In this document: piece by piece, positions 2,760-34,816 of the stretch
Numbering within the stretch: the stretch's first letter is position 1
Layout of the letters: the number at the start of each line of letters is the position of its first letter
NCBI GenBank assembly: GCA_012519515.1
Contig: JAAYQC010000069.1
Span: 1 to 38,759 of the forward strand
Direction: 5' to 3'
DNA length: 38,759 nt
DNA from: Bacteroidales bacterium
GTDB lineage: Bacteria > Bacteroidota > Bacteroidia > Bacteroidales > VadinHA17
The notes under the pieces: model-generated
Databases searched by the model: none
What the model saw: the letters and a program-made list of their open reading frames with translations, nothing else
What the model was told of the DNA's origin: nothing
Made by a program: the position numbers and the translations under genes

Positions 2760-3230
2760 TCAGGATATTGAAAGTATTTCAAAAGGTATTATACCGGAGG
2801 GTACTTTAATATCGACGGATTCACCCGCCTTTCTGCCCATAAGTCCCATCGCGATCGGTGAATTGACCGCGATTTTTCCCTGTTTCAGATTGGCCTCTGC
2901 TTCAGGAACTATCTGGTATTCCATAACATGGTTATTATTTTTATTCTTGATCTTCACCCTGTTAAGTATCCTTACCGTCGAAGTATCGATTTTTGATTCA
3001 TCGATGACCCTTGAACGCGAGAGAATATCTTCCAGCCGTGAGATCTTCATCTCAAGCATACCCTGGGCTTCCTTGGCGGCTGCATATTCTGCATTTTCCG
3101 AAAGGTCTCCCTTATCCCTGGCTTCGGCGATCATTTTGGAGATCTTGGGTCTTTCAACAAACCTGAGTTCATCAATCTCTTCTCTGAGCTTTTGAAGACC
3201 CTCTTCCGTAATGTATACAATATCTGACAT
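2760..3230 (-). CDS. greA: transcription elongation factor GreA
   Basis: GreA binds the secondary channel of RNA polymerase and stimulates cleavage of backtracked RNA. At 156 residues it has the standard length. Residues 1-75 form the N-terminal coiled-coil hairpin, with acidic tip motif GDLSENAEYAAAKEAQG. The C-terminal FKBP-like domain includes the INSPIAMGLMGRKAGE-type stretch (here VNSPIAMGLMGRKAGESVDI) that docks on polymerase. It is the first gene of a probable greA-hit-comF operon, with a well-formed promoter 50-90 bases upstream. Confidence 0.97.
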   Translation of the reverse strand: MSDIVYITEEGLQKLREEIDELRFVERPKISKMIAEARDKGDLSENAEYAAAKEAQGMLEMKISRLEDILSRSRVIDESKIDTSTVRILNRVKIKNKNNNHVMEYQIVPEAEANLKQGKIAVNSPIAMGLMGRKAGESVDIKVPSGIIPFEILSIS

Positions 3231-3289
3231 TAGTTGTCTTATATTTCAAAAACAAGAAGAATCCCGGAAATCCCGGAACTCTTCAGTAA

Positions 3290-3321
3290 CAAATATAAGA
3301 AGGCTTCAATGAATTTCCAAA
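3290..3321 (-). promoter_or_regulatory. greA promoter (TTTG-N20-TATATTTG)
   Basis: On the minus strand, TTTG (3318-3321) is followed after 20 bases by TATATTTG (3290-3297). This closely matches the Bacteroidota primary sigma factor consensus TTTG-N19-TAnnTTTG. The predicted transcript starts near 3283, giving greA a leader of about 50 bases. Confidence 0.75.
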
Positions 3322-3502
3322 AAAAAGAAAGTTAAAACTGGTATAAAACAAGTAATTAAGGCAGATTACCGCTTAGTGCTTACCGGTTTCTGTTAAAATC
3401 CACTTGATTAACAATGAATTATTCAATTAATATAACAGTCATTCGATTAACAAACAATGAACTACAGTGCTGTTAATCAGGCAACAAGCGATAAGAGCGG
3501 CA

Positions 3503-3626
3503 CGGGGCGCGGGGTACAGGGCGCAGGGCACAGAGCGCAGGGCACAGGGCGCAGAGCACAGGGCACAGGGCGCAGGGCACAGGGCGCAGGGCACAGGGCA
3601 CGGGTCACAGGGGACGGGGCACTGGG
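3503..3626 (+). repeat. degenerate heptanucleotide array (GGGCACA/GGGCGCA type)
   Basis: About 17 consecutive 7-base units run without a phase break, for example CAGGGCG, CAGGGCA, CAGAGCG, CAGGGCA. Units differ by one or two bases, and the two ends are the most degenerate. It lies in the 652-base gene-free gap between greA and a small secreted protein gene. The reverse complement of the unit (GCCCTGT) forms the array at 34742-34814. Confidence 0.9.
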
Positions 3627-3638
3627 ATAAATCTTGAA

Positions 3639-3694
3639 GGTCGTGCAGGTCTTGCAGGTCTCTTACAATGAGGAATTAGCGAAGGTTGTATCGG
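3639..3694 (+). repeat. nonamer repeats plus 37-base segment shared with the 34.7 kb locus
   Basis: Three 9-base units (GGTCGTGCA, GGTCTTGCA, GGTCTCTTA) run from 3639 to 3665. They lead into a 37-base segment at 3658-3694 containing TTAGCGAAGGTTG. The same 37 bases, with about five substitutions, occur in reverse complement at 34659-34695, again next to 9-base units and a heptad array. The shared order of modules shows that the two loci are copies of one composite repeat. Confidence 0.85.
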
Positions 3695-3696
3695 AT

Positions 3697-3741
3697 GGAT
3701 CCCCTCCAGTGGAGAGCCTGCCCCGCTCAAGCGGGGGGATC
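3697..3741. repeat. nested palindromic element
   Basis: GATCCCC (3698-3704) pairs with GGGGATC (3735-3741). Inside lie two smaller hairpins: CTCCA-G-TGGAG (3704-3714) and CCCCGC-TCAA-GCGGGG (3721-3736). The whole could fold as a three-way junction or cruciform. It has no T-run, so it is not a standard terminator. It looks like a REP-like or MITE-like intergenic element. Confidence 0.65.
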
Positions 3742-3756
3742 TTTCTTCGAAGGACG

Positions 3757-3882
3757 CTAAACGCTTAACCCTGAACACTTAACACTATCCACTCTTTCGC
3801 CCTGTGCTTGTTCGCATACCGCTTTCCCCTTTCTACTTTCTACTTTTAACTTTCTACTTTTAACTTTCCACTCTCTTCTCCC
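3757..3882 (-). repeat. second heptanucleotide array, abutting a stop codon
   Basis: Eighteen consecutive 7-base units fill this interval exactly, from CTAAACG CTTAACC CTGAACA CTTAACA through TACTTTT AACTTTC TACTTTT AACTTTC to TTCTCCC. The last unit ends at 3882, and the minus-strand stop codon of the neighbouring gene begins at 3883. One unit, GCCCTGT (3799-3805), is identical to the unit of the array at 34.7 kb, which links the two sequence types. Confidence 0.8.
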
Positions 3883-4269
3883 CTAGCGGTATTTCCTTCC
3901 TGCTTTCTTTTCCGAAGATTTTCTTTTCTTCTTTTTCTCCTTGTACTTCAGATCAGTATCCTTACGGTTTGCCGCCATCCGTTCCTGAACGGCGGGTGAC
4001 TGAATTGCCACTGCCCGCTTTTTTTGATCTTTCACGTATTCGTTGTACTCTTTCTCCAGCTTCTTCTGATCTGCTTCCTGTTTCTTCTTTGCCCTGACCA
4101 CGCTTGGAGATTCCCTGTATTTCACCTGCCTGGTGTTAAGGCTTTTTCCAAAAATACTCCTTTCAGGATTACGGTTGCCTTTTTTAACCTTCTGGGCTTC
4201 GCATACCGCACCGGTAAGAAAAAGTAAAAGAATTATCGGCAACAATCTTTTGAATGACAGATATTTCAT
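3883..4269 (-). CDS. small secreted basic protein, unknown function
   Basis: A 128-residue protein with an N-terminal signal peptide (basic MKYLSFKR, hydrophobic LLPIILLLFLTGAV, likely cleavage near CEAQ). The mature part is very rich in Lys, Arg and Glu, with a probable helical or coiled-coil stretch (ADQKKLEKEYNEYVKDQKK) and a strongly basic tail (KYKEKKKKRKSSEKKAGRKYR). I recognise no domain. It starts 20 bases after ahcY on the same strand and is probably transcribed with it, although a periplasmic protein has no obvious link to methyl-cycle metabolism. The Cys near the cleavage site is not in a convincing lipobox. The heptad repeats begin directly after its stop. Confidence 0.75.
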   Translation of the reverse strand: MKYLSFKRLLPIILLLFLTGAVCEAQKVKKGNRNPERSIFGKSLNTRQVKYRESPSVVRAKKKQEADQKKLEKEYNEYVKDQKKRAVAIQSPAVQERMAANRKDTDLKYKEKKKKRKSSEKKAGRKYR

Positions 4270-24128: not shown

Positions 24129-24755
24129 TTATAAATATGTTTCAATTGTTGATCCATCTCTGTATTGGTTTGTTCTGTATTTTTTGTTTTTTCCCAACAA
24201 GGTGCGTATTAGGTTGACAGCTGCCTCGTCATGTATCCCGGGAATAATAGTCGTACGGAACTCAACCTCTATTGCCGAATTGTTTAACAGAAGTATGGAA
24301 GTCATAATCTTTTCAATGATATCGGCAGTGACCTGGATTCCGGTTATTTTAGCATATAAACTCTTTTCAGGTAAAGTTTTGACATCCATCGCGATATAAT
24401 CAGCCAACTTGTTTTTAATGATTTTTTGCAACATGGATGGATTAGTGCCATTGGTATCAAGCTTCAGGGAATATCCCAGCGATTTAATCTCTTCAAGCAA
24501 TACCGGCAAATCACCGTAAATAGTTGGTTCACCCCCGGTTACGACAACACCGTCAAGCCAGTTGTTTCTTTCTGCAAGAAAATCCAGCACTGTTTTTTCA
24601 TCAATATCTTCTGTTCTGTCAATCAGCTCAGGGAGGACAAGAGACGGATTATGACAATATCCACACCTGAAATTGCAACCTTTCGTAAAGATTACGGCAG
24701 CAACTTTCCCATCCCAGTCAACAAGACTGTTTTTTACAAAACCCCCTATCCTCAT
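24129..24755 (-). CDS. nrdG: anaerobic ribonucleotide reductase activating enzyme (radical SAM)
   Basis: 208 residues. Generates the glycyl radical on NrdD using S-adenosylmethionine and a 4Fe-4S cluster bound by CNFRCGYC (the CxxxCxxC motif, near residue 27). VVVTGGEPTIYGDLPVLL is the GGE motif that holds the methionine part of SAM, and LKLDTNGTNPSML follows. The start overlaps the nrdD stop as ATGA, indicating translational coupling. It is somewhat longer than the E. coli protein and belongs to the NrdG2/PflA-like shape. The 230 bases after it hold only a weak GC-rich dyad (24072-24098). Confidence 0.95.
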   Translation of the reverse strand: MRIGGFVKNSLVDWDGKVAAVIFTKGCNFRCGYCHNPSLVLPELIDRTEDIDEKTVLDFLAERNNWLDGVVVTGGEPTIYGDLPVLLEEIKSLGYSLKLDTNGTNPSMLQKIIKNKLADYIAMDVKTLPEKSLYAKITGIQVTADIIEKIMTSILLLNNSAIEVEFRTTIIPGIHDEAAVNLIRTLLGKNKKYRTNQYRDGSTIETYL

Positions 24756-26950
24756 CTCCTTGTTTCAGGCTCATGCATCAGACTGCTCAGCCCGGCAACT
24801 GCCACTTCCTCTTTAATCCCGGTGTCCCTGCTCCCCGGCGTGTCTGTTACCCTGAACAGAACCCTGTCTTTATATTCCTGGCGCTTCCCGCTGTTCCATT
24901 GACTGACCGGTCGCAGATAACCTACTATTCTGCTATAAACTTCACAATTTTTTCCGCAATCGGGACATTTAAAATGCTCCCCTGCCACATAACCATGTGA
25001 AGGACAGATGCTGAATGTAGGTGAGAGTGTTATGTACGGTAGACGGAATCCCGCGGTTATTTTTCTTATCAGGTTTTTTACGGAACCGGCGGGAATGTTG
25101 TTTTCTCCCGTAAAAACATGTAGCACTGTTCCTCCCGTGTATAAAGTCTGAAGTTTATCCTGATGTTTGAGAATCTCAAATATGTCGTCGCTATAGTTCA
25201 CGGGGAGTTGAGTGGAATTTGTATAATAAGGACTGGCTCCCTTTAGATACTCATTCCGGTTTGCCGTGATAATATCAGGATATTGAACTGTATCGATCCT
25301 GGCGAAACGGTAGGTGGTGCTTTCTGCCGGAGTGGCTTCAAGGTTGTAAATATTTCCTGTTTCCTCCTGGAACTCAGATAATACACCACGCATATAATCC
25401 ATAATCCTGACAGCAAATTCTTTCCCTTCCACGGTGTCAATCCCAACTCCGAGATGGTTTATGCAACACTCATTCATACCCACGATACCGATGGTTGAAA
25501 AATGGTTTTTCCAGTAGCAATTATAGCGCTTATAAATATCTCTCAGATAAAACTTTGAATAAGGATAAAGACCTAGCTCGGTATAGTGTTCAATTGTTTT
25601 TCTTTTGATTTCCAGACTCGTTTTTGCCAGCTCCATCAGGTTCCTTAATCGCTGAAGGAGATTTGATTCCGAAGAAGCTTCATAACCGAGTTTGGGAAGA
25701 TTGATGGTAACTACACCAACTGAGCCGGTCAGGGGAGCTGATGCAAAGAGACCACCTCCGCGTTTTATCAGTTCTCTTTTATCAAGGCGCAGACGGCAGC
25801 ACATACTTCTCACATCTTCAGGATTAAGGTCGGAATTGACAAAATTTGAAAAGTACGGGATGCCGTATTTAGCTGTCATTTCCCAGATCCCGTTCAGCTC
25901 AGGGTCATCCCATTGGAAATCGCGGGTAATGTTGTAAGTGGGTATGGGAAAGGAGAAGGGACTTCCCGTTTCATCTCCTTCAAGCATGATCTCGGCAAAA
26001 GCTTTATTCAGCATTGTCATTTCCTGCTGATAATCGCCGTACACGGAGTCCTGCATTTCACCTCCACAAATAACAGCTTCATTTTTAAGAAAATCGGGAA
26101 CGGTAAGATCCATTGTTATATTAGTGAACGGAGTTTGAAATCCGACTCTCGTGGGGATATTCATATTAAAAAGGAATTCCTGCAAGGCCTGCTTAATCTG
26201 CTTGTAGTTCAGTTTGTCGTGTCTTATAAACGGAGCAAGAAGGGTATCGAAGTTTGAAAAGGCCTGGGCACCGGCAGCTTCTCCCTGCATCGTGTAGAAG
26301 AAATTAACTATTTGCCCAAGCGCCGTTCTGAAATGACGAGCGGGTTTGGTCTGTGTTTTTCCATCGACGCCCCTGAAGCCAGTAAGAAGAAGATCTTTAA
26401 GATCCCATCCCACGCAATAAACACTCAAAAACCCCAGGTCATGAATATGAAAATATCCCTGCTTATGTGCTGAAGCAATATTTTCGGGATATATTCTTTC
26501 GAGCCAGTACTGAGATGTTATTGTTGTTGATATATGCTGGTTCAGACCCTGAAGAGAGTATGAAGAATTAGCGCTCTCCCTGACTCGCCAGTCTGATACG
26601 GTAAGGTAATTATCAATAACTTCGATGTTTGTAAAAAGTTCTCTGGTGTTTCTAACAAGTTCTCTCTGCTTTCGATAAAGTATATAGGCTTTCACGAGAT
26701 CAAAATCACCATCCTCAAACAATGCATGCTCCACATGATCCTGGATTCGTTCGACAGTCAGAGTTTCACTCTTCAATAATAGAGCCAGCCGGTCCGACAC
26801 AATTGATGTAAGGCTTTTTGCTTTTGACCGGTCAGGTTTTCCGATCGCGCGCGTTGCTTTAAAAATTGCATTTTCAATTTTTTCAGGATTAAATGCAACT
26901 ACTTCTCCATTACGTTTAATAACCTGAGACAAAAGAAGTTCACCATTCAT
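24752..26950 (-). CDS. nrdD: anaerobic (class III) ribonucleoside-triphosphate reductase
   Basis: 732 residues. Reduces NTPs to dNTPs under anoxic conditions. Residues 5-95 are an ATP-cone allosteric domain (VIKRNGEVVAFNPEKIENAIFKATRAIG). The barrel contains RSMCCRLRLDKREL with an active-site Cys candidate. The C-terminus has a four-Cys zinc site (CPSHG...CPDCGKNC) and the glycyl-radical loop SRIVGYLRPVSQWNSGKRQEYKDR, with Gly677 as the likely radical site. About 25 residues beyond the usual end (TDTPGSRDTG...EPETRR) are unusual. The gene lies downstream of a cobalamin riboswitch, so it is expected to be turned down when B12 is plentiful. Confidence 0.97.
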   Translation of the reverse strand: MNGELLLSQVIKRNGEVVAFNPEKIENAIFKATRAIGKPDRSKAKSLTSIVSDRLALLLKSETLTVERIQDHVEHALFEDGDFDLVKAYILYRKQRELVRNTRELFTNIEVIDNYLTVSDWRVRESANSSYSLQGLNQHISTTITSQYWLERIYPENIASAHKQGYFHIHDLGFLSVYCVGWDLKDLLLTGFRGVDGKTQTKPARHFRTALGQIVNFFYTMQGEAAGAQAFSNFDTLLAPFIRHDKLNYKQIKQALQEFLFNMNIPTRVGFQTPFTNITMDLTVPDFLKNEAVICGGEMQDSVYGDYQQEMTMLNKAFAEIMLEGDETGSPFSFPIPTYNITRDFQWDDPELNGIWEMTAKYGIPYFSNFVNSDLNPEDVRSMCCRLRLDKRELIKRGGGLFASAPLTGSVGVVTINLPKLGYEASSESNLLQRLRNLMELAKTSLEIKRKTIEHYTELGLYPYSKFYLRDIYKRYNCYWKNHFSTIGIVGMNECCINHLGVGIDTVEGKEFAVRIMDYMRGVLSEFQEETGNIYNLEATPAESTTYRFARIDTVQYPDIITANRNEYLKGASPYYTNSTQLPVNYSDDIFEILKHQDKLQTLYTGGTVLHVFTGENNIPAGSVKNLIRKITAGFRLPYITLSPTFSICPSHGYVAGEHFKCPDCGKNCEVYSRIVGYLRPVSQWNSGKRQEYKDRVLFRVTDTPGSRDTGIKEEVAVAGLSSLMHEPETRR

Positions 26951-27020: not shown

Positions 27021-27057
27021 TACTCAATCACTTTTCACCCGAAAGCTACGAAATTTT

Positions 27058-27215
27058 TATTTCCGGCAGGTCTTCTGACTTATCCCGTTTCAACCGCCTT
27101 CCCGATCACAAATGGACAGTGGCTATCGGTTGAACCATATAATGGGACTTACAGCTACGGGGATAGTTCCGGATTTACACCGGATTCCCTATTAATCTGC
27201 TTAGAACCGGATATG
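27058..27215 (-). promoter_or_regulatory. cobalamin (B12) riboswitch controlling nrdDG
   Basis: Read on the minus strand, the segment contains the conserved blocks of the cobalamin aptamer in order: GGGAATCCGGTGTAAATCCGG, CCCCGTAGCTGTAAG, GCCACTGT and AAGTCAGAAGACCTGCCGG. The closing helix P1 can form between ATATCCGG at the 5' end and CCGGAAAT at the 3' end with one mismatch. The aptamer is about 158 bases and ends about 108 bases before nrdD. Known cobalamin riboswitches repress their genes when adenosylcobalamin or related forms bind. Here it would shut off the B12-independent reductase when B12 can support another, B12-dependent one. Confidence 0.93.
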
Positions 27216-27218
27216 ACA

Positions 27219-27226
27219 CAAAACTA
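27219..27226 (-). promoter_or_regulatory. nrdDG promoter -7 element
   Basis: The minus strand reads TAGTTTTG, matching TAnnTTTG. The expected start, about 7 bases downstream near 27212, falls at the 5' strand of riboswitch P1, so the aptamer would be at the very start of the transcript. No -33 TTG at good spacing was seen. Confidence 0.65.
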
Positions 27227-34314: not shown

Positions 34315-34317
34315 ATT

Positions 34318-34341
34318 GGGTTCGGGGTTTGGGGTTTGAGG
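34318..34341 (+). repeat. short heptad array directly after a stop codon
   Basis: GGGTTCG, GGGTTTG, GGGTTTG and AGG begin three bases after the TAG of the EEP gene. It is the third place in the window where 7-base repeats abut a stop codon. Confidence 0.6.
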
Positions 34342-34353
34342 TAGTCAATGGTT

Positions 34354-34499
34354 GTTTACCCCCTTCCCAACCTTCCCCCAAGTGAAGGAGCAAGAAGATT
34401 CTGCTAATATTGGGAAGAAATATGAACTTCATTATTTGATGTAACAAATTGAACAGCAGGGGCATTTCCCCCTTGGGGGAAACGGGAAAGGGGGTAAGT
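34354..34499. repeat. MITE-like inverted-repeat element
   Basis: The left end (TTTACCCCCTTCCC...TTCCCCCAAG, 34355-34383) is an imperfect inverted copy of the right end (CTTGGGGGAAACGGGAAAGGGGGTAAG, 34472-34498). Between them lie about 90 unremarkable AT-rich bases. The right arm includes CCCCC-TT-GGGGG. There is no coding content. It resembles a small non-autonomous mobile element or a decayed REP-like repeat. Confidence 0.5.
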
Positions 34500-34588
34500 G
34501 AATGCAGGGGAAACAGGAAAGAGGGTAAATGAACTGGTACAGGAGGAAATGATTCAAGAAACATATTACGGGATGCAGTGCCCGGTAT

Positions 34589-34814
34589 GCGGTTCGGGGT
34601 TCAAGGTTCGCAGCTATGCAAGTTTCGTTAAGTGTTTAGCATTCAACGTTCAACAAACCCTATGCAACCTTCGCTAAATCCTCATGATAAGAGACTTGCA
34701 AGACCTGCATGACCTGCACGACTTGCAAGACCTGTCCTTTTGCCCTGTGCCCTGTGCTCTGTGCCCTGAGCCCTGTGCCCTGTGCCCTGTGCCCTGAGCC
34801 CTGTGCCCTGTGCC
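34589..34814 (-). repeat. composite heptad/nonamer repeat, inverted copy of the 3.5 kb locus
   Basis: Heptad-like units GCGGTTC GGGGTTC AAGGTTC (34589-34609) lead through degenerate units to the 37-base shared segment (34659-34695). Then come five 9-base units (GACTTGCAA, GACCTGCAT, GACCTGCAC, GACTTGCAA, GACCTGTCC; 34693-34737) and ten 7-base units GCCCTGT or one-base variants (34742-34811). The array ends two bases before the stop codon of the dehydratase gene. Module order matches 3503-3694 read on the other strand. The ORF at 34709-35035 is an artefact of this array. Confidence 0.85.
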
Positions 34815-34816
34815 AT

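Follow-up and report, generated by a model that had tools for sequence, protein, structure and literature searches.

In a survey of 7006 genomes with SPADE, heptamers were the commonest intergenic tandem repeats of prokaryotes, and no clear clue to their function emerged (PMC6344855). An excess of heptanucleotides among long simple sequence repeats (SSRs) is credited to Mrazek 2007, as cited in PMC4679880, together with the proposal that 7 nt is the length contacted by polymerase. The heptads GGGNATC and GGGGA(C/T)T of Xanthomonas and Nostoc are quadruplex-forming repeats (Rehm 2015, PMC4692102), and G-rich heptads on the sense strand at most 50 bp behind stop codons have already been described. 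TAACTGA heptamers occur in Beggiatoaceae, Cyanobacteria and some Bacteroidetes (PMC4679880), and heptanucleotide STRR repeats are known from the cyanobacterium Calothrix, as cited in PMC4692102.

We analyzed a 38,759-nt contig (JAAYQC010000069.1, hereafter the window) from the draft genome of a Bacteroidales bacterium (3.2 Mb in 255 contigs, 97% complete; hereafter the focal genome). Its main heptad, GRGCDCR (the G word), is neither GGGNATC nor GGGGAYT. The arrays are 7-nt tandem repeats in intergenic DNA, as are the heptamers of Rehm 2015, and the G word has the same unit length, a G tract, the same strand and the same place behind stops. In contrast to those repeats, one unit in four has a broken G tract (GAG), the arrays often start 0-2 nt behind the stop, and alongside them occur many non-G words as well as composites that turn over between sister species. 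As in the SPADE data and in Mrazek 2007, the latter as cited in PMC4679880, heptamers dominate the intergenic tandem repeats, and period 7 exceeds other periods as in the dominant heptanucleotide SSR class. Those studies, as far as the citing paper portrays the older one, are statistical surveys, whereas the present analysis works out word set, empty sites, turnover and strand rule inside a single genus. The TAACTGA heptamers resemble the arrays in being dispersed, intergenic and present in Bacteroidetes; however, that system has one fixed word, placed mostly upstream of start codons in its main genome and usually in 2-6 copies there (PMC4679880), and both words and positions differ here. STRR repeats, as they appear in the citing source, are likewise tandem intergenic heptanucleotides with several words per genome. 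The word is not among the named cyanobacterial repeats. An initial annotation of the window had missed the published heptamer excess (PMC6344855; Mrazek 2007 in PMC4679880) and the G-rich sense-strand heptads behind stop codons (PMC4692102).

Array 1 occupies 3499..3626 on the plus strand and comprises about 18 units of the G word, here GGCACAG or GGCGCAG (TRF unit GGCACAG, 18.3 copies, 77% matches). In the lag test, identity at lag 7 was 0.75 for array 1 (3503-3631; shuffle mean 0.35) and 0.62 for array 2 (3757-3882; shuffle mean 0.32). The halves of array 2 are each significant alone (0.57 and 0.73), and none of 2000 dinucleotide shuffles reached the observed value for either array or either half. 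Array 2 consists of 18 heptads in a single phase; along it the word drifts from CTTAACA by way of GCCCTGT to AACTTTC, and the strand that is sense for the adjoining gene is GA-rich (GAAAGTA). Its last base, 3882, immediately precedes the TAG stop codon (3883..3885, minus strand) of a 128-aa ORF at 3883-4269, which the insertion adjoins. Between the arrays lie a 9-base repeat block, (TCTTGCAGG)n, at 3632..3661 (plus strand, TRF) and a segment at 3678..3741 (plus strand) in which the dispersed, non-repetitive core AGCGAAGGTTGTATCGGATGGATC is followed by a nested palindrome. The palindrome, at 3698-3741, reads GATCCCC...GGGGGGATC and encloses CTCCAGTGGAG and CCCCGCTCAAGCGGGG. The period of both arrays, the in-phase drift, the end of array 2 at the base before the stop, and the repeat block and palindrome had all been described in the initial annotation and were confirmed; the start of array 1 had been set slightly late, at 3503.

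A search of 3230-3890 against known RNA families returned no match at the gathering score. The RNA of array 1 folds better than shuffles (z -2.8 for the G-rich strand and -4.6 for the C-rich strand, the latter through repeated GCGC/GUGC pairing); the folding of the palindromic core RNA is not better than that of shuffles. The only Rfam match in the window is a cobalamin riboswitch (RF00174, 108 bits) at 27048-27226 on the minus strand, which stands ahead of a ribonucleotide-reductase-like gene (24752-26950, minus strand).

Period 7 recurs throughout the focal genome with many unrelated words. A lag scan of 0.93 Mb gave 80 segments at lag 7, 70 at lag 14, 13 at lag 8, 9 at lag 9 and almost none at other lags; shuffles give none. 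Because about half of this sample had been picked for carrying copies, density was taken from the remaining, unbiased 0.437 Mb. Here we found 32 arrays at lag 7 (about 73 per Mb), 23 at lag 14, 8 at lag 8 and 8 at lag 9, and none at lags 4-6, 10-13 or 15. A lack of 7-base periodicity outside this locus, which would have counted against the initial annotation, is therefore not observed. Although 89% of this sample is coding, 29 of the 32 lag-7 arrays fall outside called ORFs. At least 7 perfect dimers are present for each of about 20 different heptads, and the words include GRGCDCR, (T/G)RRCAAT, DAACNCT, xACTTTC, GAACCTT/GAACCCC, GCGGCxx and AATACAT. To our knowledge, the STRR words differ from these, and we know of no description of such a position rule or turnover for STRR. 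Several words can be held in one array, as in array 2 of the window and in arrays of the sister species. The constant phase across changing words that was noted in array 2 does not extend to a general property: the phases at 30 junctions between unlike words (8, 3, 8, 2, 3, 4 and 2) are too dispersed, and general phase-locking was rejected.

The core and the module order are copied within the genome. Composite copies have both in common, BLAST copies of the core/palindrome module are up to 93% identical, and the core is present in 12 copies in the 0.93 Mb and in none in the sample from relatives; for the 9-base module, the corresponding numbers of approximate matches are about 43 and 2. The copies differ in the modules that they carry, and many are a G-word array alone. 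A short palindromic repeat, CCGTTATAACAATGTTATAACA, has about 44 approximate copies in the 0.93 Mb and 6 in the relatives' sample, and sits inside the same intergenic composites (e.g., L050 7895-8530 and L049 6262-7492). Period-8 arrays of GACCGCAA (54 approximate matches) come after G-word arrays in several composites (e.g., L051 8894-9474).

G-word arrays begin directly behind stop codons, many at 0-2 nt and frequently without any gap. Where the flanking genes stand in tandem, 28 of 35 arrays lie closer to the stop than to the following start (p=5e-4); 14 arrays are at most 10 nt from the stop, against 3.9 expected under uniform placement (maximum 9 in 2000 simulations). This null is generous, since promoters exclude arrays too; the strand rule escapes that objection. 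At most 20 nt from a stop, the G-rich strand is the sense strand in 23 of 24 G-word arrays (p=3e-6); more than 40 nt away, there is no bias of the G word toward G-rich sense (13 vs 24). Compared with random place and strand inside the same gaps, stop-adjacent sense arrays of the G word number 11 in the focal genome (2.6 expected), 16 in congeners (2.3 expected) and 11 at loci of other taxa with lower GC, up to 0.58 (2.5 expected). The counts of stop-adjacent antisense arrays are 0, 0 and 2, respectively. By placement simulation and strand test alike, the enrichment directly behind stop codons is real. Non-G words near stops show a weak trend toward G-rich sense (6 vs 3 in the focal genome, 4 vs 1 in the sister). 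Gene calls came from a simple ORF finder and single distances may err; both window cases were checked against orthologues.

Comparison with congeners revealed recent gain at empty sites for two loci in the window. At the first, alignment showed that the ancestral gap, with the greA promoter TATATTTG and a leader hairpin (3231..3370, minus strand), is kept intact, and the insertion separates this block from the stop codon of the 128-aa ORF. The gap between the 128-aa gene and greA measures 132-148 bp in most congeners, 652 bp in the focal genome and 261 bp in the sister species, G032. The G032 insert starts 12 nt behind the same stop and consists of (GGTTGCT)n followed by (GGTACGC)n; promoter and leader hairpin are kept in both genomes. 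The second composite, at 34315..34816 (minus strand), lies between two convergent stop codons and has the same module order as the first. Its G-word array (34741..34814, minus strand, TRF) begins 2 nt behind the stop of a threonine-dehydratase-like gene, with the G-rich strand as sense, and its 9-base repeat block (34692..34734, minus strand, TRF) is ordered as at 3632-3661. In about 25 of 29 congener loci, the convergent neighbor ends within a few bases of the 3' end of the threonine-dehydratase-like gene; in the focal genome, about 500 bp of repeats separate the convergent stops, and G032 has a short insert with other repeats. Both window insertions are thus about 500 bp long and start at a stop codon, and most congeners are without repeats there. 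Most congeners show the flanking gene pairs in synteny, and the arrays are therefore not mis-joins. Among 52 orthologous gene pairs compared between the focal genome and its sister, arrays are present in both for 4, in the sister only for 3 and in the focal genome only for 1. At the shared positions, arrays may have been gained separately in each species, or a single old insertion may since have had its words exchanged.

The greA promoter TATATTTG is of the Bacteroidota type. Between it and the start codon, at 3256-3284 on the minus strand, lies a terminator-like hairpin with a T run, which is conserved across an alignment of 8 species (13 pairs, of which one shows two-sided changes) and is possibly an attenuator of greA.

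Between sister species, the exchange of words is complete. We searched for three consecutive copies of a word, allowing at most 2 mismatches; controls with reversed patterns gave zero. Triplets of GGTTGCT occur 30 times in G032, 20 in G062, 10 in G021 and 40 in G033, and 0 times in the focal genome, while triplets of CAATTAG occur 134 times in the focal genome and 0 times in the five relatives tested. A two-protein tree gave (((G032,focal)99,G062)88,G033)89. Given this position of the focal genome, the simplest reading is that the terminal branch saw the loss of one word and the gain of another. The G word is found in low copy through much of the genus and in scattered phyla, and is absent from 24 other families of the order; heptad arrays as such were found in many separate genomes. 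Two origins were rejected. A phage origin does not fit, as the G word is rare in viral sequence (18 stretches among 2.9 million contigs), and local seeding of a word at its own stop codon is at odds with the occurrence of one word at dozens of loci in one species and its lack in the sister.

In the congener G029 (L300-L309), period-9 arrays exceed period-7 arrays (10 vs 5 in 0.19 Mb), and the favored length may therefore itself shift between lineages. In Acidobacteria bacterium YP1.bin64 (L155, L183), several (RRGCGCA)n arrays are clustered and split by a recurring AAGGAAAAAGCAGAAAGCGCAG start; these clusters resemble a longer repeat containing heptads.

The best explanation, to which we give an even chance, is a fast-evolving, lineage-specific heptad family in which duplication in 7-nt steps behind stop codons is combined with spread of words between loci, near neutrality. 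Arrays would be born and lengthened by tandem duplication at replication or repair. Duplication would be favored in the transcribed stretch behind the stop codon, where nascent RNA is without ribosome cover and G-rich RNA could re-anneal to the template as an R-loop. Arrays would be tolerated there because coding sequence and next promoter stay intact. Recombination or conversion among arrays would carry words from locus to locus, and drift would replace them, as in eukaryotic satellite libraries. A dedicated enzyme is not required, and most arrays are probably near-neutral. The suggestion of the initial annotation that a process measures length was the right kind of idea, since a constant length of about 7 nt with changing sequence holds genome- and genus-wide; of the two processes it named, slippage of single units has left no visible signature, and templated synthesis is unlikely (see below). 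Adjacent units resemble each other less than in shuffles, which may be an effect of assembly, since short-read assembly would hide runs of equal units and unit order is unreliable in such assemblies.

This observation also counts against duplication in 7-nt steps, as do several others. Local slippage alone leaves the same word at dozens of loci unexplained, and the weakest point of the model is how one word comes to be spread over a genome, for which none of the measurements accounts. The length of 7 is taken as given rather than derived against 6 or 10, the trend toward G-rich sense is only weak for non-G words, and G029 has more arrays of period 9 than of period 7. Copying of arrays from one another gained no backing: arrays have no more strings of unit variants in common than shuffled ones do, and the best score falls inside the shuffled range (one pair reaches at least 18 bits, against 0.13 expected); we do not use this as proof, because short-read assembly would hide long shared blocks.

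It is doubtful that the arrays are instead a selected 3'-UTR element, in which post-stop G-rich heptads of the mRNA form RNA/DNA quadruplexes or bind a protein. Such an element would affect termination, mRNA stability or supercoiling, and selection would hold position and strand. Strand- and position-specific placement across taxa speaks for it, and the closest precedent makes quadruplexes in vitro (PMC4692102), although the same study found no regulatory role (Rehm 2015). The units themselves point in both directions. Among 704 interior units from 62 arrays of the G word, variation is confined to unit positions 2, 5 and 7, and 338 of 350 units with a single change carry G2 to A, A5 to G, A5 to T or A7 to G. 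Four GGG tracts are present in 44 of 63 arrays, yet within the tract it is the middle G that varies most: it reads A (giving GAG) in 24% of units, against 0.9% and 0.4% at its neighbors. This is the reverse of what quadruplex selection predicts and argues against its strict form. Moreover, GGG is missing from most other words, and most congeners are without an array at the same two genes. The small number of change types was not read as proof of constraint, as a small pool gives the same by chance; a few high-frequency alleles in every array fit a shared pool spread between loci.

REP/RAYT elements are short, dispersed, intergenic palindromic DNA, often downstream of stop codons. A non-autonomous mobile element of the REP or MITE kind, in which the composite of heptads, 9-mers and palindromic core is inserted behind stops and copied whole, would account for the module order and core common to copies of up to 93% identity and for the insertions of about 500 bp at empty sites. 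We regard it as unlikely. Module content varies by copy, with many copies being a G array only; the palindromic core, in contrast to REP/RAYT, is just one optional module. The words that the sister carries at these sites are different ones, and the sequence sampled from it contains no copy of the core. Neither fixed ends nor a target duplication was seen. The focal genome, at 97% completeness, has 0 matches to the Y1 transposase (Y1_Tnp, PF01797), of which the sister has 4, and among polymerases the search covered RVT_1, with 0 matches in the focal genome and in the sister.

Compared with duplication in 7-nt steps, readings that invoke an active machinery fare poorly. That gene ends across the genus are overwritten by an active machinery working in trans, which advances in constant steps of 7 nt and has its word fixed a single time for each species, is very improbable; if it were true, one change of template or enzyme would rewrite dozens of loci linked to translation stops, in a prokaryotic counterpart of telomere-like or satellite-library turnover. 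Even less credible is templated synthesis, in which a dedicated polymerase writes gene-end heptads from a template that differs by species: it fits a species-wide exchange of words at constant length and place, but several words share one array, neither a candidate gene nor a template was identified, and the lack of RVT_1 matches in both genomes makes a reverse transcriptase unlikely. An assembly or binning artefact, suggested by some arrays at contig ends and by the anti-clustering of equal neighboring units that short-read assembly could produce, is largely refuted already by flanking gene pairs that are syntenic in dozens of separate assemblies and by heptad arrays in many separate genomes, and we give it next to no credence.

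The arrays are a pronounced form of a phenomenon that is known but lacks an explanation. They add to earlier work composites built of several words, sites that are empty in congeners, a turnover of words by species, and the strand rule for another word and for further phyla. Since the strand rule at stops recurs in unrelated phyla, it points to transcription and the translation stop, and not to the word itself. The genus supplies the comparative material, sister species with empty sites and a full exchange of words on one branch, which makes the heptamer question directly testable.
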